64,000 bases of DNA. Origin: a virus. Made by a program: the position numbers and the translations under genes. Within the stretch, counting starts at the first letter, position 1; every line of letters begins with the position of its first letter. The stretch spans positions 1 through 64,000 of IMG/VR virus record IMGVR_UViG_3300038451_000147. The stretch is one strand, 5' to 3'. This document shows positions 29,707 through 63,344 of this stretch, piece after piece. The notes beneath the pieces were generated by a model. The model saw only the letters and a program-made list of their open reading frames with translations. It had not been told where the DNA came from and ran no database searches.

Positions 29707-30101
29707 GTGAAGACAAGTTCAATACAGAGAATTTCAAGGCCCAATTCCACAAGGACGTAGAGTTCGGAAAGAGTAGCGGTGGCAGTAGTGAGGGCTATAC
29801 CTACATAGCGAAACTCCTTCTTGTGCCAGTCACAGATGGCCGCAATAGACTCCTCTGGCTCGTCTTGGCTCCCTACGCCATAAGCATCCTGAAGATGAGT
29901 AGAGAGAGCGCGATAGATATGATAACGGAATACTTCAAAGCGTGTAACAAACTGAGTCCCTGTCCCAAAGTCCTCAGTCTGGTCGAGCAGTATGTGGACT
30001 ATGTGCCGACCATCGAAGGCGGTCTCAAGCCGCCCAAACAGGAAACACTTATGGCCAGCGACCCCGACTTATGGGCTATCATTTCTAAGGCGATAGCATG
30101 A
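29703..30101 (+). CDS. PriX-like or primase C-terminal accessory protein
   Basis: 132 aa. The core DGRNRLLWLVLAPYAISILK, then MSRESAIDMITEYFKACNKL, resembles the helical domain of the archaeal non-catalytic primase subunit PriX and the PriCT regions of viral primases (GR-x-R...LAPYL...A...W...CN). It overlaps PolB by ATGA. It would supply substrate binding for the PriS-like primase at 24585. Identification rests on motif resemblance only. Confidence 0.45.
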   Translation: MSEDKFNTENFKAQFHKDVEFGKSSGGSSEGYTYIAKLLLVPVTDGRNRLLWLVLAPYAISILKMSRESAIDMITEYFKACNKLSPCPKVLSLVEQYVDYVPTIEGGLKPPKQETLMASDPDLWAIISKAIA

Positions 30102-32227
30102 TACCATTCGAGTCGGCCAACTACTTCACTGAGGTAGGGAAGGTCAAGATGAAGATATACAGGAACGGGGTGATTGAGGTAATAGACCCCACGCCTCTGC
30201 CCTATTGCTTCGCCCCGACCAAGTATGAGATACAGACGCAAGCCAAGATGGAAAGAACGGACATGAAGGCTTTCGACACAGGAGAGAGCGTGAAGAGATA
30301 CACCTTCAACGTGCCTCAGAACGTCAAGTTCTTCAGGAACTTTCAAGAGGCGAAGAGCGTGTCCGTCTATGAGGCCGACAAGAAGTATGTAGGAGTCTGG
30401 ATGCTAGACAACGACTTCGTATGTAGCGATTATGAGAATGAAGCATCGTGGGACACAGAAGAGGACGACTCAGGAGTGAAGCCCGACCCAGAGACGGCCA
30501 ACGTCCCGATAACAGCCATAGGCATCATCTACAAGGGGCAGAAGTATGCTTGGACAGGGGCAGAGAAGGGCATCTTACAGGGTGCGGTAGACTTCATCGG
30601 GGAGAACAAGATTGGTCTGCTGAAGGGTTGGAACAGCAAGTTCTGGGACGTTCCCTTCTTCATGAAGAGGATGGCCTACAGCAACGTGCGATTCGATTAC
30701 AGTTCGACTAGGTTCCTAGACCTCTCGCTGGCCTACCGTTTCATGGAAAAGAACTTCCGAAGCCAGTGGTCTCTAGAGAAGGTGGGCAAGAGGTTCTTCG
30801 CCATGAAGAAGCCCTTCACCAACATAAGGCTCAGTTCTTTGCCAGTAGAGCAACTGAAGGAGAGGGTGCTGTGGGATGCCGAAGTGACGGAGATGATAGA
30901 CACGGCCAAGAACCTGTTGACCAACGCGCCCAAGGATTATAGCAAAGTATGTATCCAGATGGCGAAGCAGGGCCACATCTTCCCAGACCAAATCTTCGGA
31001 GTCCATCCGGTCAAGAAGACCATCACAGTCACGCCAGTTCTCGACCAATACTTCCTGAAGTATGCACACAAACTAGGCTATGTATTGCCCTGCAAGAGTG
31101 GATACAACCAAAGACCCAAGTATACAGGAGCGTGGGTTGAGGTCTACGAGAGGGGCTTCTTCAACGATGTCCTTCAGTTCGATGTTGACTCTCTGTATCC
31201 CAACGTGATACTTGCATACAAACTGGCTCCGCAAGGCCGCTTCGACCTCATAGAACCTATAGTCCGAGACCTCTTGGCTGGCAAACGGAACGCCAAGGAC
31301 AAGGTAGAAAGATGGGCCTACAAGATTTCGGTCAACGCCCTCTATGGTATCTTCGCCAGCACCTACTACAGATTCAAGGCGGTAGAGGTCTCCGACCAGA
31401 CCTGCTTTCACGGAAGGGACATTCTCACTCACACGGCTGAGTTCCTGAGAAGTCTGGGCTATGTGGTCTACTATATGGACACAGACTCCATCTTCGTTCA
31501 TGGAACATGGGAAGAGAGGGAGACCATTCAGAATCTAATCAACGACTTCGTGAAGCGCACCTACAATCTTGACAACATCAAATTCGGATTGGAGAACCAC
31601 TGGAAAGTGATAGGCTTCCCAAGAAGCACGAAGGGTGAGAAAGCCAAAAAGAAGTATTACGGCATAGTGTATAGAGACAAGACAGGAGCAGAGGTCAACA
31701 GATTTGAAGAGGCTGGAATGGAGACGCTTCGTGGCGATTGGACTGAACTGGCCCAGATGGTTCAAGAGGCTCTGAAGAAGATGCAGGTCTCTGGGGTTCC
31801 TAAAGAGAGGATGCTGAACTTCTATGAGGTAACGAAGGTCAACCTCTACAAAGGGCAATATGACCCCTTGTTAGTGCTTGAGAAGCACATGAGTAAGGAT
31901 GTCTCTGAGTATGGTCTAGAGAAGATAGGGAAGAGTGGAAAGATGCACAAAGCAGGGATTCCACAGCACGTTAAGGCTTTCAAGAACGCCTTAGAGACGG
32001 GATGGGTTCCCAACGACATGGTGCAGTATGGTGTCGTCCAGTTCGTTATGACAAGAGGCGGGATACCGAAACTCACCAATCTAGTCAAGCCCGGAGAGAT
32101 AGACTACCAATGGTATGTGACGAAACAGATAGACCCCATCGTGTGGAGACTTGGTATTATCGAAGCTGTCACCAAGTATAAGAAGGAGAAGCCGACCAAG
32201 GAAAAGACGAAGCAGACGACCCTCTAA
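30098..32227 (+). CDS. polB: Family B DNA polymerase
   Basis: 709 aa. Polymerase motif A LQFDVDSLYPNVIL near residue 363, motif B AYKISVNALYGIFAS near 407 and motif C VYYMDTDSIFVHG near 450 are intact. Only about 45 residues separate A and B, so the fingers are short and there is no TPR1 insertion of protein-primed enzymes. Exonuclease: VWMLDNDFV near residue 93 in place of D-x-E, GWNSKFWDVPFF for Exo II and LWDAEVTEMI for Exo III, so proofreading may be altered. It is the main replicative polymerase candidate. The stop overlaps the minus gene at 32224. Confidence 0.9.
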   Translation: MIPFESANYFTEVGKVKMKIYRNGVIEVIDPTPLPYCFAPTKYEIQTQAKMERTDMKAFDTGESVKRYTFNVPQNVKFFRNFQEAKSVSVYEADKKYVGVWMLDNDFVCSDYENEASWDTEEDDSGVKPDPETANVPITAIGIIYKGQKYAWTGAEKGILQGAVDFIGENKIGLLKGWNSKFWDVPFFMKRMAYSNVRFDYSSTRFLDLSLAYRFMEKNFRSQWSLEKVGKRFFAMKKPFTNIRLSSLPVEQLKERVLWDAEVTEMIDTAKNLLTNAPKDYSKVCIQMAKQGHIFPDQIFGVHPVKKTITVTPVLDQYFLKYAHKLGYVLPCKSGYNQRPKYTGAWVEVYERGFFNDVLQFDVDSLYPNVILAYKLAPQGRFDLIEPIVRDLLAGKRNAKDKVERWAYKISVNALYGIFASTYYRFKAVEVSDQTCFHGRDILTHTAEFLRSLGYVVYYMDTDSIFVHGTWEERETIQNLINDFVKRTYNLDNIKFGLENHWKVIGFPRSTKGEKAKKKYYGIVYRDKTGAEVNRFEEAGMETLRGDWTELAQMVQEALKKMQVSGVPKERMLNFYEVTKVNLYKGQYDPLLVLEKHMSKDVSEYGLEKIGKSGKMHKAGIPQHVKAFKNALETGWVPNDMVQYGVVQFVMTRGGIPKLTNLVKPGEIDYQWYVTKQIDPIVWRLGIIEAVTKYKKEKPTKEKTKQTTL

Positions 32228-34990: not shown

Positions 34991-36481
34991 CTAATTGGCG
35001 GCTGTCACCACCGTATACGATGAGACAGATACGTTATTGGTGTCAGTTCCTATCAGTTCAAACAAAGCATGATTGTTGGTCGGAATCGCGGGGTCGTATG
35101 GAAGCGTGCCAGAAGCAACTAGATAGAGAGTCACTACAACAGGATTCGAGATGGCATCTCTAGTGATTGTAGGGGTTGTCGGAATGACAATCTGTTGAGA
35201 GTATGTATTGAGAGGTATGGGTGTGACAAAGCCCGGACTGTAGGCTAGAGTGGTATTAGCATAATCTATCAGTCTGCTAACGGTATTCACTGTAATGGTG
35301 ATAGGATACGGCACAGATGCCTTGGGTTCAATAGGATAGAAGTAGTAGAAGAGCGTGATATATCCGGCTCTAAGAAGGTCTACAGAGTTACAGAAGGCCA
35401 TGTTTCCAGCCACAGGGTCAGCATCGGTCTTCAAGTGTGTATACGTCAAAGCCGCATCGAGAGCCAAGAACGACACTGGATGTGAGTTGAGCGCACCAAT
35501 GGTGGCAGGTTCCATCCTTGAAGTATTCGCTCCTATGACTATCTGCTGTCCCACCGCAAATCCTGTGACCGACTTCACGAAGAGGATAAAGGTTCCGGTA
35601 TTGCTGTCCTTGTTTACAACAGTGTTGGCTGTTGCTATCTTCTGCACCACTCCTAATCCATAGGTCGCTATGCTAGGCAGAACTACAAGCGTGAAATCGC
35701 ACACCGCATAGGTGTTGGTTATGGAGTCGTAAGCGAAGACGTTGACTTTGTATGAAGGCGGTAAGGTAGGGTTGATGACGTTACCTGTGCCTTCTGGATT
35801 TATGAAGAGCGTCTGGTAGTTCTGAGTTGTGTAAGTGTTGAGAGCGTTGCCAGAATTGGGAGCAAGCGTGGAACTGAGAAGACCTTTCCATCCACTTTCA
35901 CCCGAACTCAAAGTCGTGAAAGTGCCAGTAGTCCAAGCGGATGGAGATGAGCCTATCTTCCCTACCCAAGTGGCGGTAGTCGCATTGACAGAGGATATGT
36001 TGGGGTCTACAGCAGAGTCAATCTTCTGAAGGAAGAAAGAGAGCGTCAGAGGGTTGTTGAACCCCTTGATTGCAGAGACATAGATTGTAACACTGTCCTT
36101 TGTGGTCGTAGTGCCACTTACGGTGGGCGTGGCGTAGAGTATCTGAAAAGTATCACCACTGTCATCTGGCGCAGGTGAAAATGCGTTGGTGGTTATTGTG
36201 GTTGCTGTATTCGATAGAATCGCCCTAATCTGGTTAATTGCAAGACCAGAAGTGTATTTCAGGTAGTAACCGACCCAATGGTTCACAGTCCATAACGCAC
36301 CCGAATCCTGTAGCACTGTCGCTGTCGTGCCAGTTGTTGTTGTGTCTGAAAACGACACAGTGTTGACGGGCGGGTTTGGTATTGAGGGCGGATTGGCCGG
36401 AACAGTGTAGTTCTGAGGCACTTGAATCAGAGCATTGTCTACCCCTATCCAGAAGACATTTGAGACCGTAGGCGCGACCAT
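34991..36481 (-). CDS. Beta-rich tail/fibre protein with shared 60-aa module
   Basis: 496 aa from ATG 36481 (MVAPTVSNVF), selected by promoter spacing over an in-frame extension to 36559. Ig-like or fibronectin-like composition. Early in the protein a module beginning TTTTGTTATVLQDSGALWTV also occurs in 36523-39936 and in the tail tube protein. Likely a tail or fibre component. Confidence 0.55.
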   Translation of the reverse strand: MVAPTVSNVFWIGVDNALIQVPQNYTVPANPPSIPNPPVNTVSFSDTTTTGTTATVLQDSGALWTVNHWVGYYLKYTSGLAINQIRAILSNTATTITTNAFSPAPDDSGDTFQILYATPTVSGTTTTKDSVTIYVSAIKGFNNPLTLSFFLQKIDSAVDPNISSVNATTATWVGKIGSSPSAWTTGTFTTLSSGESGWKGLLSSTLAPNSGNALNTYTTQNYQTLFINPEGTGNVINPTLPPSYKVNVFAYDSITNTYAVCDFTLVVLPSIATYGLGVVQKIATANTVVNKDSNTGTFILFVKSVTGFAVGQQIVIGANTSRMEPATIGALNSHPVSFLALDAALTYTHLKTDADPVAGNMAFCNSVDLLRAGYITLFYYFYPIEPKASVPYPITITVNTVSRLIDYANTTLAYSPGFVTPIPLNTYSQQIVIPTTPTITRDAISNPVVVTLYLVASGTLPYDPAIPTNNHALFELIGTDTNNVSVSSYTVVTAAN

Positions 36482-36506
36482 ACTAAGATTTTTAGGGGCT
36501 TGACGG

Positions 36507-36515
36507 CTTATAAAG
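36507..36515 (-). promoter_or_regulatory. TATA box for gene 34991-36481
   Basis: Minus-strand GCAATCTTTATAAGCC, 26 bases before ATG 36481. Confidence 0.65.
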
Positions 36516-36522
36516 ATTGCCT

Positions 36523-39500
36523 CTACGGTGAGACGTAAGGATGGGGCTGATACACCCACTGTTGAGTGGGGTCGAACACCACCGCATTGTTGGGATTGGC
36601 TGTCTGAGCGTTGACGATGGCCTTGGTGAACTTGGGATTGGCTTGGTAAGAGTAGTTGACATAGACAGTGTAAGCGTTGTTCGCAGGGCTAATGGTGTAA
36701 GAGACAGGTGGATGAGTTGAAGTATCAAGTGTGTATGTAAGCCCATCGTCTACTATCTGTAGTGGAGCCATAACGCCTTGGACGAGCAAATCATAGTTAG
36801 TGGCTTTCAAGGGAGTTCCAGAAGTGGAAGTGGGCATCGTGTTACTTGTGCCACCATCGGCTCTGTAGACATTGTAACTCTGTGCATATGGGACTGAAGG
36901 CCAAGTGATGACAATCTCCGATGACACAAGCGTATAGGTATCGCCACTACCATTCGGTGCAGGTGAGAAGGCGGCAGTGGTTATCGAAGTTGCGGTATTG
37001 GAAAGAATCGTCCTCTCCTCTCCGATGGCAGGGCCACTGGTATATTCCAGAGTAAATCCTACCAAGGCGTTCACAGTCCACGCCTTACCGCTATCCTGTA
37101 GCACTGTTGCCGTTGTGCCAGCCGTAGTCGTTCCAGTGGTCTGAGCGACAGTGTATGTTCCACCCTCTGGCACAGAGTTGTTGTAAGGCTCTGGCTGAGT
37201 GTTCGTATTAGTGTTCGAGAGAGGAAGATTGAACGGGGTGCATACTTGAGAAAGCGCGGTCTCGTTGTTGTCTGGGTCTATAGCCGTTATGAGATACCAA
37301 TACTGATGCCCCAATGCGAGTTGCGAACCTGCCCCTACAGGAGTTCCATCATACACTACATTCAATCCCGGCGGAGTTTCAGGAGCAGATGTATCGAGAG
37401 ACTGAACAAAGGGTTGAGTATTCGCATCTCCGCCTAGAGTGCCGTTATCCTCATAGGAGTTTGTAGCGGTGAAGTCTAGGTAAATCAACTGAAGTATGTT
37501 CAATGTGAGTATATCCGCTATTCCAAGCACCGCCCTGTAGACATTGTAACGAGTGACAGCACTTCCCGTAGTCGGGTCTATCACTGCTGGCCAACTGAGA
37601 AAGATGTGACTGCCCGGAGTCGCAACATACCCCGATATTGAGTAATTAGACAGGGCAAACTCGTTGCCGTAAGAATCAACAGGGCAATAGAGGTATTGGC
37701 TTCCTTCCGGTGGAAAGGGAGCAGTGCCACCCGTAATTGATGCCGCAGGTAGAGTAGAAAACAGAGGGTCTGGACACCAAGAAATCGCCCCTGTGTTGCG
37801 GATTACTACCATGTATTTCCCACTTACATTGGCATTCCCACCGTCATCAGTGAGAAAGGGAGCAGAACTGGTAAGAGTTGGCGGAGAGGCGTGCGACTTG
37901 GAGATTAGCGAGAGGATGTCTGCCAGTTGGTTGAGGTTGATTACTTTGTCATAGATGGCCATTCCATCTGGTTGGATGACCGTCAAGTAGACACTGTTCG
38001 GTGCGCTACTGGCAGTGACACCCAAAGTCGTAATCTGATTTGCCGATGAAGAGTTTGAGGCATCCACTTCGACTCCGAACTGATACAAAAGGATGTCGTC
38101 TGCCTTCACTGGATTGCCAGCCGTGTCTATGGCGTTCATAGTATTGGGTATGGACTGAGCGTATACAGGGATGGCTTGAGCCTCTGCATCTGGATATACA
38201 GTCCCACTGTCTTCGTAGTCCTCACATCTCAACTGAAAGGGAGTGGCCCTGTTGGTGATGAAGTCTCCGCCACCCTGATGGATGGCCCCACCTTCTGCTT
38301 GTCTTCCCCTTCCCAACAGAGTCTTAGAGGCCGGATTGACTGTGGTATACATGAACTGCATCGCCCCACCATAAGAACCCTGTTCTTGGAAACTATGGAC
38401 GGCGTTCCATTGCTCTATCGGGACGTTCTGAACAGGGAAGGTCAGAGTGAGTGTGATGTCTTCGCCTTGGTCTGGACTCCATGTTATGTCTATAGTCTTG
38501 ATTCTAGCCGTGAAAGCGGCTGTTATGAGACCACCAGTCGGATTGTAAGAGCCTATCAAGGGGTTGCCATTGCTGTCCTCTATCACGCCACTAAGACTTG
38601 GAGCATTCACTAGAATGTAATCGCCCGGATACATCGTATGTGTGCTTGCGTAAACGTAGTCCGGCTTCAAGATGATGTTAGGAATGGGGTGCTGGAAGAA
38701 GTTGATACTGGTTCCAACATACCTCTGTATCTCGCCTTGGTCTACCACGTTGTTGAGCGTCTGGTTGGTCTGCTTCAGACCATACTCAGCGATACTTCTC
38801 TGATTGTCTATCGGAATGGCGACTACATCTGAGCCTTGGAAACTGCCACCTGTAAGGACGAAACTGTTGTTCATTGAGATGTAATCGCTAGTGAATTTGA
38901 TTGAAACGATGTTATCACCTTCTGAGAACACTATAGTATCTATAGGGTCGTATCCATTGTATACCCCAAATTCCACATAAGCCATAGGCGAATAGATGGG
39001 GTCGCTCCCTAGGAGAGTGGGGTCGTTTGCGAGTTTGGCAGAGATGTTGCAACTATTGTCTCCCAAGTGTATTCCAGTTCTGTTGTTACCATTGCCCAAG
39101 GCACTATGAACAGGGTCGAAAAGCATAACTGTTGCAGTTGGTAGTTTGGGAGCAAAGGTGTCAGTCAAAGACCCACTTGGACGGGGCGGAATGGTGTAAG
39201 GAAAGTCTCCTATATCCAACCTATACTCTGCCAAGAAAGGTTGGTTCTGGCTCGGATTGAAGAGTGCAGACGTTACCAGTCTGTCTATCGTAGCGGAGAT
39301 GTTCTGATATTGGACATTCAAATTGTCGTTCACCACAATGTTGTCAAAGTCAGTGAAATACATAATATCCGGATTCAAAAAGGTCGTCTGATGAGTGGTA
39401 GGATTCACATACCCATTGTCAGCGAAATTGGCCAACTGGAAGGCTGGCAGATGTCCAGTAGAATAAGACGTTTGGAACGCAGTTACAAGGATGTCTGCCC

Positions 39501-39936
39501 AAAGTTGACCAAACCTCAAACCTAGTGTCGGATTGAGATACACTAAATAGGGATTGGTATTGGGTTGAAGAGGCGGTGGACTCTTCCCGGCTATCTGGAA
39601 AAGCCTTGTCGCAAGCATATACCATAGACTGTTGACCTGAAAGGTGGTCACAAGTTCTGCGTCTGAAACATCATATTCTGGATTCGTGGTCATCCCTCTG
39701 AATTTGAGAGTGTAAGTTCCATCAGAATTGACACGGTAGATGTAGATTTCTCTAGCCGAAACAATCTTCTGTATCCCTGCAAGAGTGATGGTCACGTTGT
39801 CCTCTGAAGGAGCGATGTTCCTTTGGAACACTAGATTAGTCACATTCGCAAGGACGATGGCCGAAGGGTTTACTGACCCATCTGGCATCAGATAGTCCGA
39901 GTCGTATGAAACGATGTAATTGATGGTGTTAGACAT
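36523..39936 (-). CDS. Large tail tip/hub protein, 1137 aa
   Basis: The N-terminus (LVFQRNIAPSEDNVTITLAG, KIVSAREIYIYRVNSDGT) resembles tail hub or baseplate proteins. The middle is beta-rich; then fibronectin type III-like repeats follow (SWPAVIDPTTGSAVTRYNVY, YWYLITAIDPDN, ITWPSVPYAQSYNVYRADGG) and a TTTAGTTATVLQDSGKAWTV module. Located directly after the tape measure gene, as tail-tip genes usually are. It probably forms the tail tip with adhesion domains at its C-terminus. Confidence 0.6.
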   Translation of the reverse strand: MSNTINYIVSYDSDYLMPDGSVNPSAIVLANVTNLVFQRNIAPSEDNVTITLAGIQKIVSAREIYIYRVNSDGTYTLKFRGMTTNPEYDVSDAELVTTFQVNSLWYMLATRLFQIAGKSPPPLQPNTNPYLVYLNPTLGLRFGQLWADILVTAFQTSYSTGHLPAFQLANFADNGYVNPTTHQTTFLNPDIMYFTDFDNIVVNDNLNVQYQNISATIDRLVTSALFNPSQNQPFLAEYRLDIGDFPYTIPPRPSGSLTDTFAPKLPTATVMLFDPVHSALGNGNNRTGIHLGDNSCNISAKLANDPTLLGSDPIYSPMAYVEFGVYNGYDPIDTIVFSEGDNIVSIKFTSDYISMNNSFVLTGGSFQGSDVVAIPIDNQRSIAEYGLKQTNQTLNNVVDQGEIQRYVGTSINFFQHPIPNIILKPDYVYASTHTMYPGDYILVNAPSLSGVIEDSNGNPLIGSYNPTGGLITAAFTARIKTIDITWSPDQGEDITLTLTFPVQNVPIEQWNAVHSFQEQGSYGGAMQFMYTTVNPASKTLLGRGRQAEGGAIHQGGGDFITNRATPFQLRCEDYEDSGTVYPDAEAQAIPVYAQSIPNTMNAIDTAGNPVKADDILLYQFGVEVDASNSSSANQITTLGVTASSAPNSVYLTVIQPDGMAIYDKVINLNQLADILSLISKSHASPPTLTSSAPFLTDDGGNANVSGKYMVVIRNTGAISWCPDPLFSTLPAASITGGTAPFPPEGSQYLYCPVDSYGNEFALSNYSISGYVATPGSHIFLSWPAVIDPTTGSAVTRYNVYRAVLGIADILTLNILQLIYLDFTATNSYEDNGTLGGDANTQPFVQSLDTSAPETPPGLNVVYDGTPVGAGSQLALGHQYWYLITAIDPDNNETALSQVCTPFNLPLSNTNTNTQPEPYNNSVPEGGTYTVAQTTGTTTAGTTATVLQDSGKAWTVNALVGFTLEYTSGPAIGEERTILSNTATSITTAAFSPAPNGSGDTYTLVSSEIVITWPSVPYAQSYNVYRADGGTSNTMPTSTSGTPLKATNYDLLVQGVMAPLQIVDDGLTYTLDTSTHPPVSYTISPANNAYTVYVNYSYQANPKFTKAIVNAQTANPNNAVVFDPTQQWVYQPHPYVSP

Positions 39937-40853
39937 CAGTATACACCCCTCTGTTTCTGTGAGGCCAACAGGGTCTTAGCCAAAGCATTCTCCACTTCCT
40001 GTCTCACTCTAGCCAAGTCTACGTTGCTTGTAGCGTGAATATGAATCTCAACATTAGATGCTCCGACTACTCCACCACCTGTTGCTCCTTTTGGAACCAC
40101 CGTCTCGCCAGCGTGAACTAGAGCAAGACCAGTTTTAGGAACGAAACCACCAGACTGGTAAATACCTGCAAATGCAACAGCAGGAAGAACTTTCTCTGCG
40201 ACTGAAACCAAACCACCTGCACCTTCCGCACCAGCAAGTCCGACTTGGGCGGTTGTCTCCGCTTCTGTCGTTGCAATAGCCCCAAGTTGGGCTACTCTTA
40301 AAGCCGACAGAGCCACTACAAATGTATCCACTGTGGTTGCTATCTCTGTAAAGGCCGTCATAATCTTGGCCGCATTACTGAAACTCGCTGTCACATACGC
40401 ATTTGCGGCAACCATCTCATTCACCTTGCTCTGCTTGTAGAGAGCACCAACATAATTTGCGGCCACAGTTGCCCTTGTTGCCTCTTCTGAACCTTTACCA
40501 TAGACTTGGGTAGCAACAGACTGCAAAGCAATTCCCTGTGTGTAGACATTCTGAGCGCGAATCATCTTGATTTGAGCATTATACAAGTCAACCAATTCAT
40601 TGATATTGCCAGCCGCCAAATCTGCCAAAGCCGCAAAAGAAGAGTTCCATGCTGACATAACAGTAGAGAACGTCTTGACTCCTTGGATACCTATAGACAT
40701 AGCCGCAGACATCCCGGCTTGTGCTTCTGCTTCTTCTTTTATTGCTGATGTTAGTTGCTTTGAAACATCATAGCCTTCTGCCATTGCTATCCGTAAATCG
40801 CCTACACCTTCAGCAAGTTCAAGAATATCCTTCTTACTCATCACCGTTGCCAT
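39936..40853 (-). CDS. Tape measure-like protein, short
   Basis: 305 aa. Helical, Ala-rich body (AVMSAWNSSFAALADLAAGN) with the C-terminal signature GGFVPKTGLALVHAGETVVP, which is typical of tape measure proteins. It follows the gpG/gpGT locus, as expected. By the usual 0.15 nm per residue it would specify a tail of only about 45 nm. TATA-like CTTATAAGG at 40859-40867 is 6 bases from the first ATG and about 20 from a second (MSKKDIL), which may be the true start. Confidence 0.65.
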   Translation of the reverse strand: MATVMSKKDILELAEGVGDLRIAMAEGYDVSKQLTSAIKEEAEAQAGMSAAMSIGIQGVKTFSTVMSAWNSSFAALADLAAGNINELVDLYNAQIKMIRAQNVYTQGIALQSVATQVYGKGSEEATRATVAANYVGALYKQSKVNEMVAANAYVTASFSNAAKIMTAFTEIATTVDTFVVALSALRVAQLGAIATTEAETTAQVGLAGAEGAGGLVSVAEKVLPAVAFAGIYQSGGFVPKTGLALVHAGETVVPKGATGGGVVGASNVEIHIHATSNVDLARVRQEVENALAKTLLASQKQRGVY

Positions 40854-40867
40854 ACTATCTTATAAGG

Positions 40868-41427
40868 CTACGTCTGGGTTAATAAGGTTGTCGGACTTGT
40901 CAGAATTTGCTCTCTTTGATGCTTCTTCTCAAGTCTCTTCCTTTCAGCTTCGACAACGAACCTATAGGCTAGAAGCAGTTCTCTTATCTCAAGAGCCGTC
41001 ATTTTAAGGGCTTCCTCTCTGGGAATGCCCAAAAGGTCTTGAAGCGTCTTCAGAACAGCATACTTGTCATACTTACCAAGTATGGTTTTGACTTCGTTTA
41101 GAGTCTCTTCGTCTTTGGTGTTGGTGACTCCTGTGACGGTGAGTTCTTTAAGAGTGATAAAAAACTGGTTTCATAGACGTTGAATCTCTGTAGTTCAACC
41201 CAAAGATGGAGAACCGTTTCTTTGTCTACCGCTTTCACAGCCTCTATAGACTCGAACTTAGGCTCGACTGTCCCATAGAAGACCATAATGGCTTGCTGTT
41301 CCACAAGTTTGTCCTTGTTAGACGCGATAAGCCTATCTACAAGACTGCCCTCTTCAAGATTGAAGCGTTTGATGGTATACTTCGTGCCTCTAACTGTTAC
41401 TTGCTTGGTTTCAGTAGTCACAAGCAT
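40868..41427 (-). CDS. gpGT-like tail assembly chaperone, -1 frameshift product
   Basis: The minus-strand frame of 41098-41427 contains the slippery heptamer T TTT TTA at 41164-41158. A -1 shift there enters a frame that is open for 96 codons to TAG 40870-40868 and has no early start codon of its own. The extension begins ITLKELTVTGVTNTKDEETL and continues with a helical region (LLAYRFVVEAERKRLEKKHQ). Total about 186 aa. This is the G/GT arrangement of tail assembly chaperones that load the tape measure protein, encoded next. Confidence 0.75.
41098..41427 (-). CDS. gpG-like tail assembly chaperone
   Basis: 109 aa. MLVTTETKQVTVRGTKYTIK then a helical body (LWVELQRFNVYETSFLSLLK). The unshifted product of the frameshift locus, ending shortly after the slippery site. 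Upstream is a membrane protein, then the tail tube, giving the canonical tube-chaperone-tape measure order. Confidence 0.65.
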   Translation of the reverse strand: MLVTTETKQVTVRGTKYTIKRFNLEEGSLVDRLIASNKDKLVEQQAIMVFYGTVEPKFESIEAVKAVDKETVLHLWVELQRFNVYETSFLSLLKNSPSQESPTPKTKRL

Positions 41428-41442: not shown

Positions 41443-41452
41443 CTATATAAAG
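41443..41452 (-). promoter_or_regulatory. TATA box for the chaperone-tape measure unit
   Basis: Minus-strand AATCTTTATATAGTC, about 16-25 bases before ATG 41427. Confidence 0.55.
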
Positions 41453-41453
41453 A

Positions 41454-41774
41454 TTACTGGCCGAGTATCCTTCTTTCGTTCTCATCCAGTCGGTGTCTGA
41501 GGTCTTGGGCTTGCTCCTGATTCCTGAGATTCATGACCTCACTAGCGGCAGTTCCATACACGACATTCGGGTAAGGAGCGTCTCTAAGAATCCCTTGGAC
41601 ATCCGCGCCATTGAGGTTAACACCCCAAAGAGCGGCCACAACCCCTGTTAAGAACATCACTCCCATACTATCAGCGAATGCCGATGCCATGTCTAACCCT
41701 AGCAGAGAAAGCCCTGCAAACGACCCTATGAGTGCCAGTATCATAAGCCCCAAGATTCCCTTTTGTCCTATCAT
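41454..41774 (-). CDS. Membrane protein with charged C-terminal tail, 106 aa
   Basis: Two or three hydrophobic segments (GILGLMILALIGSFAGLSLL, MGVMFLTGVVAALWGVNLNG) followed by a basic/acidic coiled tail (EQAQDLRHRLDENERRILGQ). Unusual in the middle of a tail gene cluster. Confidence 0.55.
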   Translation of the reverse strand: MIGQKGILGLMILALIGSFAGLSLLGLDMASAFADSMGVMFLTGVVAALWGVNLNGADVQGILRDAPYPNVVYGTAASEVMNLRNQEQAQDLRHRLDENERRILGQ

Positions 41775-41824: not shown

Positions 41825-43048
41825 CTAGATAGTCTTCACGGCGGCTCCGGTGGCAGTCCAAGGCAGGTCTACGGCAACCCTGTCTGCAATTGGAAGGGTG
41901 AGGTCTATCTTGGGTAGCACCGCACCTGTGTAGTCTATTGCGACAGTGTAAGTCGGAGAAGTGGCACTTGGCAGACCTTCTTTCCCAAGGATGATACGAA
42001 TGGTCTGTTGGGCTAGACCGGACAGAGTGGTATCAAAATCAACAACATACACATCACCACTAGCATCTGGCGCAGGACTGAATGCGGCTGTCGTTATTGA
42101 GTGTGCGCCATTTGCTGTGATTGTCTGTTGTAAACCAGCCGCAGGGCCAGTAATGTAAGTCAGTATACCACCAATCAAAGCACTAGCAACGAAAGTCTGG
42201 GTAGTGTCGGCCAGCACTGTTGATGTAGTGCCAGTTGTAGTTGTGCTTTGAAGATTAGGAACGTAGCCCTCATAAGTCACATCAGAAAGGGTGGCAAAGG
42301 TGGCCGTCATATCACCATCGGCCTTGCGCGTCAGTGTAGGCATACTTCTGATGACATCTGTGCCAAACTGAGGCACACGCGACAGGTTGTTGGTGATAGT
42401 GCCAGTGAAGGTCAAGGTTTGTGGTGCAACGGTTGGCGAAGACTGTTGGTTAAATATGACGCTCTCTTGGGAGAAGTAGAACGGGACGTTGCCGGGGTCG
42501 CTTGGGAAGGTCACATAGGCAGGAAGCACTCGCATGATGTTTTGACACCAGTAGTCTACTCTAACCTCAAGTGCGGCATTCGTCTTGCCACTGATTGTCA
42601 CAGTGTTGGCAATTGCTCCTGTGACAGTGTAGACAGCACCAGTGTCGAAGTCCTTGATGATGAAAGCGTGGGAGATACCAGTCACAGGTGGTGAAAGAGA
42701 CCCGCCAGCCGGAGTTCCGATAGCGTTAATCATGTCCCACAAGATGCCTTGTGTATGGTCTCCACTTGTCCCACCACCAATGTTCTGTGGCCAGTAGGTT
42801 ATCGTGAACTCCACGTTTCGTTGGCCTTTCAAAAGATAGGCCGGGAAGGAAGTGCTACCGTCCATCCTGTAAACAAAGATGGGTTGCTTGTCTACCGTTC
42901 CTCTCATCTGTTGCACCGCGCCAACCCAATTGTATGCCTTTGGTGTGTTTATAGTTCCCGCAGGAGCCATACCATAATCTACCTCTGCAAGCCACCCTAC
43001 GGCGGCTCTCCATCCTGCCGCTACAAGCGGGAATGTGGTAACGCTCAT
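41825..43048 (-). CDS. Major tail tube protein-like, with inserted module
   Basis: 407 aa. N-terminal AGWRAAVGWLAEVDYGMAPA and later strands (RNVEFTITYWPQN, RADGDMTATFATLSDVTYEG-like) are typical of siphovirus tail tube proteins. A TTTTGTTSTVLADTTQTFVA module of about 65 residues (around 42030-42250) is inserted late, as in the two tail proteins at 34991 and 36523; it is known as a surface-exposed add-on in phage tail proteins. The gene is directly upstream of the chaperone and tape measure genes. Confidence 0.6.
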   Translation of the reverse strand: MSVTTFPLVAAGWRAAVGWLAEVDYGMAPAGTINTPKAYNWVGAVQQMRGTVDKQPIFVYRMDGSTSFPAYLLKGQRNVEFTITYWPQNIGGGTSGDHTQGILWDMINAIGTPAGGSLSPPVTGISHAFIIKDFDTGAVYTVTGAIANTVTISGKTNAALEVRVDYWCQNIMRVLPAYVTFPSDPGNVPFYFSQESVIFNQQSSPTVAPQTLTFTGTITNNLSRVPQFGTDVIRSMPTLTRKADGDMTATFATLSDVTYEGYVPNLQSTTTTGTTSTVLADTTQTFVASALIGGILTYITGPAAGLQQTITANGAHSITTAAFSPAPDASGDVYVVDFDTTLSGLAQQTIRIILGKEGLPSATSPTYTVAIDYTGAVLPKIDLTLPIADRVAVDLPWTATGAAVKTI

Positions 43049-43088: not shown

Positions 43089-43541
43089 TCACAGAACGCA
43101 GGACATGAGCCAACCGTCCTCTTCAGGATTCGTGTAGTATTGAGGTATCTTCATATTGATGAAATAGCCGAGTTTCTCATACATACGGATGGCCGCCTCA
43201 TTGCTCTTCCGAACCTGAAGACAAGCCATAGGGATGTTCCTCTCTCTCATAGCTCTGTGAGCCTCATACATCAGTTTACACCCTATCTCTTGGCCCTTGT
43301 GCGCGGGGTCTACTGCGACAGAGATGACCAGACCCATACGAATGTAGTTAACTGTTTCCTCTCTACACATGACATAGCCTATCACCTTCCCATCCAATTT
43401 GGCCACATAGAACATATCCCCGAACTGGTTAAGATGATGCGTCCAGAAGGATGGCACATAGATTTCGGGCATACTGGCCGCATTGAGAGCCATCATAGCA
43501 GGAAGGTCTGTCCTAAGAGGGTGCTGGATTATGAGACTCAT
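43089..43541 (-). CDS. GNAT acetyltransferase, RimI/Ard1-like
   Basis: 150 aa, one GNAT domain. Motif A is VISVAVDPAHKGQEIGCKLM; the acetyl-CoA loop normally reads R-x-x-G-x-G, here K-G-Q-E-I-G. Motif B is LQVRKSNEAAIRMYEKLGYF as in N-terminal acetyltransferases. It may acetylate host or viral protein N-termini. ATGA overlap with the XPF gene. Confidence 0.75.
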   Translation of the reverse strand: MSLIIQHPLRTDLPAMMALNAASMPEIYVPSFWTHHLNQFGDMFYVAKLDGKVIGYVMCREETVNYIRMGLVISVAVDPAHKGQEIGCKLMYEAHRAMRERNIPMACLQVRKSNEAAIRMYEKLGYFINMKIPQYYTNPEEDGWLMSCVL

Positions 43542-60272: not shown

Positions 60273-60526
60273 AGAGACCCCACCCTCTCGATACCGCCAA
60301 AGTCTTGCATTAGAAGGTAAGTGCCTTCTGGTGTAAGTGGCCACGCCTTTGATTCGTAGACAAGTTTGTATGAGTCTTGGTCTGGGTCGTAGACAACACC
60401 AACAAGTTTCGCGTCAGAAGGGAGATGGGACTTAATCCTGTAAACCCCATTCAACTTGAACATCTCTTGCATTCCTTCCCTAGTCACCAAAAGGAACTTC
60501 TTGCCAGTCATGGGTTGAGGCATCAT
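60269..60526 (-). CDS. Unknown 85-aa protein
   Basis: MMPQPMTGKKFLLVTREGMQ; strands and loops (KLVGVVYDPDQDSYKLVYES) with an aromatic core suggest a small beta-barrel. Overlaps uS2 by 4 bases (ATGA). Not recognised. Confidence 0.55.
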   Translation of the reverse strand: MMPQPMTGKKFLLVTREGMQEMFKLNGVYRIKSHLPSDAKLVGVVYDPDQDSYKLVYESKAWPLTPEGTYLLMQDFGGIERVGSL

Positions 60527-61233
60527 TCTTCCTCACCCTCTTCCTCTTTCTCTGGCATCTTGGTCTCGAAGTCTTCGATGGTAAGAGGCTCCTTTGTCTC
60601 ATACTTGCAGATGTCTTCCATCTTCATCTCCTCTAGCCAGCCACTATGGAGTAGGATAGACCGGGCCAGAAGGTAGTAAACGGTGGCGATGGCCTTGGCT
60701 CCCACGTTGTTAGCCGGAATAGCGATATCCACATCCTCAAAGGTGGCGTTGGTGTTGCAGATGGCTATGACAGGGATGCCTATGCTAGAGGCTTCATACA
60801 TGGCTCGTCTGTCTCCTCTCATGGCTTCCCCTATCTTCTGTGGGACTCCATTAGTAGGGTCTGAGACCACCAGACAGTCAGCATCCACATAACTCTTGAT
60901 TTGAGAGTTGGTGAGGCTTCCCGCAACGAGACGGTGCATAACTATTGGGATGAGGGTAGCGGCATTGAAAGACTTGAGGGCATTGTCGAATCTGGGGTCT
61001 GTAGCATAGAACAAGGGTCTCATTGCAGGGTCTTGTCCATGTCGGCTTATGTGTTTGCCCACCACATCCAGTTTGTTCAGAATGGCGTTGATGTCCATCA
61101 ATGGATTGCCAGCCGGAGAAACCTCAGAGACATAGATGGCCATGTCTTTGGTGACACCGCCCTTTACCCCGATGTGGATGCCAGTGGCTCTGAGAGCGTC
61201 CTCTGTCAGCATCTTGGGAAGGATGAGACTCAT
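60523..61233 (-). CDS. rps2: Ribosomal protein uS2, archaeal type
   Basis: 236 aa. The diagnostic uS2 run is present: RATGIHIGVKGGVTKDMAIY (GxHIG..KDM), RLVAGSLTNSQIKSYVDADC (GTLTN...D), VVSDPTNGVPQKIGEA, GIPVIAICNTNATFEDVDIA, then IPANNVGAKAIATVYYLLAR. It lacks any bacterial-type insert and ends in an acidic tail (EKEEEGEEE) as in archaea and eukaryotes. uS2 is a small-subunit body protein near the mRNA exit/Shine-Dalgarno region. Here it overlaps DHH upstream and a small gene downstream by ATGA, so it is an integral operon member, not a passenger. Confidence 0.9.
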   Translation of the reverse strand: MSLILPKMLTEDALRATGIHIGVKGGVTKDMAIYVSEVSPAGNPLMDINAILNKLDVVGKHISRHGQDPAMRPLFYATDPRFDNALKSFNAATLIPIVMHRLVAGSLTNSQIKSYVDADCLVVSDPTNGVPQKIGEAMRGDRRAMYEASSIGIPVIAICNTNATFEDVDIAIPANNVGAKAIATVYYLLARSILLHSGWLEEMKMEDICKYETKEPLTIEDFETKMPEKEEEGEEE

Positions 61234-62687: not shown

Positions 62688-63344
62688 CTAGACAGACTTC
62701 CTTACCCCTTTCATGAAGGTCTCTAGTTTCTTGTGGACTTCCTCTAGAACGATGACATCCTGCTTGTTGTGTTGAACGATGTATCGCATCGAGTTTGGAT
62801 TGACCATCGCCGTCTTCCAGATTGTGGGTTCTAGGGGTGTCTTCTCTTCCACATGGAGCAAAGAGGCAACAGAAGCCAGTCTGTTGGAGTGCAATTGGAG
62901 TTTGGCCTTGACCAGATAGTAGAGGTCAACGTGCTGAACCTCACCATAGGCCGGGAAGTCTAGACCCCAATCCAAGGCGCGAGTCCTTATCATGGGAAGG
63001 TCGAAGCCAGTCCCATAGTAGGTGTAGAGAACGTCATATTGTCTCATCGCGTCTATACACGCTTGGACTGTCCTCTTGTCAAAAGTCTCGGCAAGCGGCT
63101 CATCTGGGACTCTCATGCAGTCCCAAACCATCTCCCTACTGTCTCTAGTCTTGATGGCCCAACTGTAGATAATGTTGAAGTCTCCCTGAAGACCGTTGGC
63201 TTCAATATCTAGATAGCCAACCTTCATGTCCTTATTCATATAGTCATCAAGGAACTTCTTCCAACAGTTCGGGTGTCCTACGCCAGTGTGCGCGTGTTCG
63301 CACTTCCACAGCGCGGGACTGATTAGTGGTTTCTTACCTTTCAT
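62688..63344 (-). CDS. RNase H-fold 3'-5' exonuclease (YprB/DnaQ-like)
   Basis: 218 aa. Exo I VGYLDIEANGLQGDFN (D-x-E), Exo II YTYYGTGFDLPMIRTR (GxxFD), Exo III RYIVQHNKQDVIVLEEVHKK (Y...H-N...D): the full DEDD set missing from the polymerase's first motif. Stand-alone relatives are predicted DNA or RNA 3'-5' nucleases. It may supply proofreading in trans, but that is a guess. Confidence 0.75.
   Translation of the reverse strand: MKGKKPLISPALWKCEHAHTGVGHPNCWKKFLDDYMNKDMKVGYLDIEANGLQGDFNIIYSWAIKTRDSREMVWDCMRVPDEPLAETFDKRTVQACIDAMRQYDVLYTYYGTGFDLPMIRTRALDWGLDFPAYGEVQHVDLYYLVKAKLQLHSNRLASVASLLHVEEKTPLEPTIWKTAMVNPNSMRYIVQHNKQDVIVLEEVHKKLETFMKGVRKSV

Follow-up and report, generated by a model that had tools for sequence, protein, structure and literature searches.

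Predicted -1 ribosomal frameshifting at a conserved slippery heptamer in a putative tail assembly chaperone gene of a probable archaeal tailed virus

Two reading frames overlapping at a slippery heptamer

The DNA investigated here (the window) comprises bases 1-64,000 of the 105,335-bp virus record IMGVR_UViG_3300038451_000147 and contains, on its minus strand, two overlapping reading frames that appear to form a tail assembly chaperone gene comparable to G and T of phage lambda. The G-like zero-frame open reading frame (ORF; 41098..41427) has 109 codons, or encodes 107 amino acids (aa) from its likely start at GTG 41421. Near its end it reads ACC AGT TTT TTA TCA, in which the last T of AGT, followed by TTT TTA, forms the slippery heptamer T_TTT_TTA (41158..41164, minus strand). 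After a one-base slip the sequence would be read as ATC ACT CTT AAA and onwards for 96 codons until the stop codon 40868-40870 is reached, about 15 bases ahead of the next gene. Joining the 90 residues before the slip to this T-like extension (40868..41158, minus strand) would give a fusion product of 186 aa (90+96). The original prediction, made from the letters of the window, had described these elements, namely an in-frame heptamer close to the gene end, a -1 frame open for 96 codons to just before the tape measure gene and a 186-aa fused product, and the coordinates, lengths and arithmetic all agree with it. It had also described the -1 frame as lacking an early start codon; the first ATG, GTG or TTG of this frame is indeed, in the window, a TTG 44 codons 3' of the heptamer.

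Neither the heptamer nor the open frame is readily expected by chance. Based on the codon usage of 30 ORFs in the window, T_TTT_TTA is expected 0.0012 times in the chaperone ORF, and the probability of 98 open codons in the -1 frame is about 0.005. TTTTTTA occurs only once per strand in the entire 64 kb. UUA is also the rarest leucine codon of this virus (49 of 897 leucine codons), and the T positions that are free to change synonymously stay T, despite a viral preference for TTC and CTN.

Conservation in related viruses

Searches of IMG/VR yielded eight further contigs with the gene, falling into six distinct groups: L002 and L003 (identical here), L004, L012/L020, L016/L021, L017/L023 and L018/L022 (nearly identical to each other), and L019/L024. 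One search used a peptide pattern touching the heptamer, which may introduce bias, but a second query, with its patterns well 5' of the heptamer, recovered an identical set of contigs. Identity to the window among these relatives is 57-87% for the zero-frame protein and 50-84% for the extension. TTTTTTA is nevertheless found in the same phase in 8/8 of them, with the zero-frame stop at an identical distance (19 codons past the heptamer in 9/9 contigs, including the window) and the -1 frame open for 92-96 codons. Conservation of the slippery site in relatives, which the original prediction had named as a check, is thus observed in every related contig. The longest invariant run in the alignment spans 9 nucleotides (nt) and begins exactly at the first base of the heptamer; in L012, the serine codon AGT is replaced by alanine GCT, yet the final T is retained.

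The alignment also restricts where the -1 frame can be entered. Four of the seven sequences compared (the window, L002, L004 and L019) have a -1 stop 6 nt 5' of the heptamer, and in all seven the -1 frame contains no ATG, GTG or TTG for 39-54 codons past it. The -1 frame must therefore be entered at or just after the heptamer. Further downstream, some sequences have a TTG or ATG about 44 codons into the extension, and all have an ATG at its codon 54.

Selection follows the same boundary. Over the 45 codons ahead of the heptamer, the ratio of nonsynonymous to synonymous change (pN/pS) is 0.32 in the zero frame. In the overlap just past the heptamer it is 0.39 in the -1 frame vs 0.93 in the zero frame, and past the zero-frame stop the -1 frame has a ratio of 0.30 vs 0.88 and 1.24 for the other two. 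Of the columns that vary in this last part, 51 are third positions of the -1 frame, compared with 28 and 23 for the others. The heptamer is hence the point at which the -1 frame takes over from the zero frame as the target of purifying selection.

Frameshifting and its alternatives

We interpret this locus, with a probability of roughly 0.86, as a tail assembly chaperone gene in which an archaeal tailed virus uses programmed -1 ribosomal frameshifting. This is also how the original prediction had read it, and the reading is now supported by the conserved heptamer, its phase, the position of the stop, the open -1 frame and the switch in selection. Most ribosomes would terminate at 41098 and release the G-like protein, while a minority would move back by one base at U_UUU_UUA and continue for another 96 residues, producing a G-T fusion. 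Tandem slippage, with the rare UUA codon in the A site, would be the simplest mechanism. By analogy with lambda, G would bind the tape measure protein, while the T part would recruit tail tube subunits. We infer these binding partners, as well as the status of the fusion as a minor product and the slipping of the ribosome rather than RNA polymerase. In E. coli, U_UUU_UUA is less shift-prone than A_AAA_AAG (PMC5009743), and such lower shift-proneness would be in keeping with the small share of fusion product that tails require.

Several observations weigh against this interpretation. No conserved 3' stem-loop or pseudoknot was found downstream of the heptamer, and inspection by eye revealed no obvious upstream Shine-Dalgarno (SD)-like stimulator. 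The matches of the G-like protein to tail assembly chaperone PHROG families, although repeated, are weak (best E-values 0.029 and 0.097). All the relatives also belong to one virus group with one heptamer, so the conservation of the site is not replicated in independent lineages; scans with alignments of the tape measure and large tail proteins reached no more distant viruses. The sole conserved-looking hairpin, AGTTTTTTA/TAAAGAACT, was rejected as a stimulator because the slip site lies inside it and the ribosome would melt it.

The main surviving alternative is that RNA polymerase adds one U at the run of six Ts, after which normal translation would give the same fusion. A six-base run is short for efficient transcriptional slippage, and it stands in exact phase for tandem tRNA slippage, which a polymerase would not need, though this phase is seen in a single lineage. 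On the other hand, the uninterrupted T6 is conserved, polymerase slippage would leave the same product and the same pattern of selection, and it would agree with the lack of a downstream ribosomal stimulator. Examples of this route occur in some insertion sequence (IS) elements and in other genes (PMC5009743). None of the relatives found has another heptamer that could exclude polymerase slippage, which we retain as an unlikely alternative. The invariant A of the heptamer might have appeared to be separate evidence for the ribosome, but we dropped it, since a conserved isoleucine codon of the -1 frame begins with this same base.

The downstream frame could instead be translated as a separate protein, from an internal or non-standard start coupled to the upstream stop. 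The TTG or ATG about 44 codons into some extensions and the universal ATG at codon 54 could serve such a start. However, -1-frame purifying selection already acts on the initial 39-54 codons of the extension, right after the heptamer, with no ATG, GTG or TTG ahead of them, and the conserved heptamer would be left unexplained; we consider two separate proteins very improbable. Homopolymers are also prone to errors, and a sequencing or assembly indel, or a decaying gene, might in principle mimic this layout. This is already contradicted by nine contigs from different metagenomes, which share the same T6 and two-frame layout, and by purifying selection on each frame on its own side of the heptamer, leaving an artefact or decay with almost no credibility. 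Programmed ribosomal frameshifting accordingly remains our preferred explanation.

Tail gene neighbourhood

The surrounding genes, all on the minus strand, are consistent with a chaperone. Downstream lies a gene for a short tape measure protein (39936..40853; 305 aa, with a possible second start at ATG 40841), whose L012 orthologue matches tape measure PHROGs (E-values 5e-5 and 9e-5), followed by that of a large tail protein (36523..39936; 1137 aa), which is 56% identical in L012 and L024, where the genes follow one another in the same order. Upstream, a tail tube-like structural protein (41825..43048) is recognised from its position and from the match of its L012 orthologue to a tail PHROG (E-value 2e-5). 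The order of tube, chaperone and tape measure in the original prediction is thereby kept, also in L012 and L024, and backed by tape measure and tail profile matches, but the tube-like and chaperone genes are not direct neighbours: between them lies a small ORF (41454..41774; 106 aa, hydrophobic N terminus) with a homologue at the same place in relatives.

Together with the gene layout and the weak profile matches, this synteny supports a lambda G/GT-type chaperone identity. The G-like protein has no Pfam or NCBIfam match, PDB profile searches with both the G and T domains gave no credible match, and AlphaFold modelling of the two did not reach the quality required for a fold search. Similarity to known phages is limited to about 25% identity in the terminase; none could be detected for the tape measure protein or the large tail protein.

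Two further features were observed among these genes. Three structural proteins (41825-43048, 36523-39936 and 34991-36559, minus strand) have in common a short repeat module of the type TTTTGTTSTVL.DS......G..L.YTSG.A......I..N....I.T.AFSPAPD.SGD.Y, which in the tube-like protein is an insertion that L012 and L024 do not have. The tube-like gene also adjoins a RimI-like GNAT acetyltransferase gene (43089-43541, minus strand), found at the same place in L007, L012 and L024.

Archaeal signals and probable origin

A TATA-box-like element, TTTATATAG (41443..41451, minus strand), precedes the chaperone gene and is invariant in the window, L002, L003 and L004. It lies 30 nt ahead of GTG 41421, as for a leaderless start, vs 24 nt ahead of ATG 41427. 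Because of this spacing, and because the ATG is not conserved (the nearest relatives have TTG there), translation more likely starts at GTG 41421. Such elements are common in this virus: 16/39 genes have one 20-34 nt 5' of the start codon (mostly at -29/-30), vs 1.6% of random positions, which bears out the archaeal transcription signals of the original prediction. SD-like motifs precede 6/39 genes, vs 4.5% at random. TATA-like elements about 30 nt ahead of start codons are a signature of leaderless archaeal transcripts.

The gene content points in the same direction. Tailed-virus genes are present (TerL, E-value 9e-51; portal, E-value 4e-14), and uS2 (TIGR01012), a RecJ-like protein and a Thermoproteota-type RNase HI have archaeal families as their best matches. 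Judging from these genes and the TATA signals, this is probably an archaeal tailed virus (Caudoviricetes) with leaderless transcripts. Two scans of 84,980 prokaryote genomes with terminase queries found no related provirus or host.

The archaeal/eukaryal-type uS2 gene (60523-61233, minus strand) matches TIGR01012 with an E-value of 1.7e-34, below the equivalog cut-off, and in the PDB it is matched best by uS2 of archaea and eukaryotes. It is retained in 4/6 related contigs (55-79% identity). As a 2024 paper names no ribosomal proteins of archaeal viruses other than L21e and bL19 (PMC10848311), uS2 carried by an archaeal virus may be new. One could imagine a group of large archaeal tailed viruses outside the haloarchaea that shift to -1 for G/GT on U_UUU_UUA with no structure downstream, on leaderless mRNA and with a virus-supplied uS2 in the ribosome tuning initiation or frame maintenance, but we regard this as highly speculative and improbable. 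Separately, a family B DNA polymerase (30098-32227, plus strand) has only a weak exonuclease-domain match, and an RNase H-like 3'-5' exonuclease is encoded elsewhere (62688-63344, minus strand); a split polymerase/exonuclease is reported for Kunpengvirus (PMC10848311).

Comparison with known frameshift systems

As in phage lambda G/GT, the tape measure gene is directly preceded by a small ORF with a slippery heptamer close to its end, and a -1 extension of about 100 codons ends just ahead of the tape measure gene. However, sequence similarity between the window's proteins and lambda G or T is undetectable, the lambda heptamer is G_GGA_AAG rather than U_UUU_UUA, and here the signals are archaeal and the tape measure much shorter (305 aa). 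A -1 frameshift in g-t has been predicted for the haloarchaeal tailed viruses HVTV-1 and HCTV-1, -2 and -5 (reviewed in PMC5009743 and PMC8211752); these are tailed viruses of archaea, as the present virus probably is, and have the predicted G-T frameshift in common with it, but U_UUU_UUA is a different heptamer and this virus group is apparently non-halophilic. HIV-1 gag-pol uses the identical U_UUU_UUA (PMC5009743), although in an unrelated virus, on an unrelated ribosome and with a 3' stem-loop; no such stem-loop is evident here. The Sulfolobus fucA1 gene likewise shifts to -1 at a one-base run followed by another codon of the same base, but it is a host gene with an A-rich site and has experimental proof; it is the one gene for which archaeal -1 frameshifting has been experimentally proven (PMC8211752).

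G-T frameshifting had thus already been predicted for haloarchaeal viruses. Our analysis extends the prediction to another, apparently non-halophilic, group of archaeal viruses with a different heptamer, and brings evolutionary evidence that maps the putative shift to its site. The ORF pair would be better annotated as a single gene able to yield a fusion, in place of two hypothetical genes. A conserved viral site, together with the evidence from selection, would offer a compact, testable cassette for archaeal frameshifting, and the lambda tail-chaperone strategy would reach a further group of archaeal viruses.
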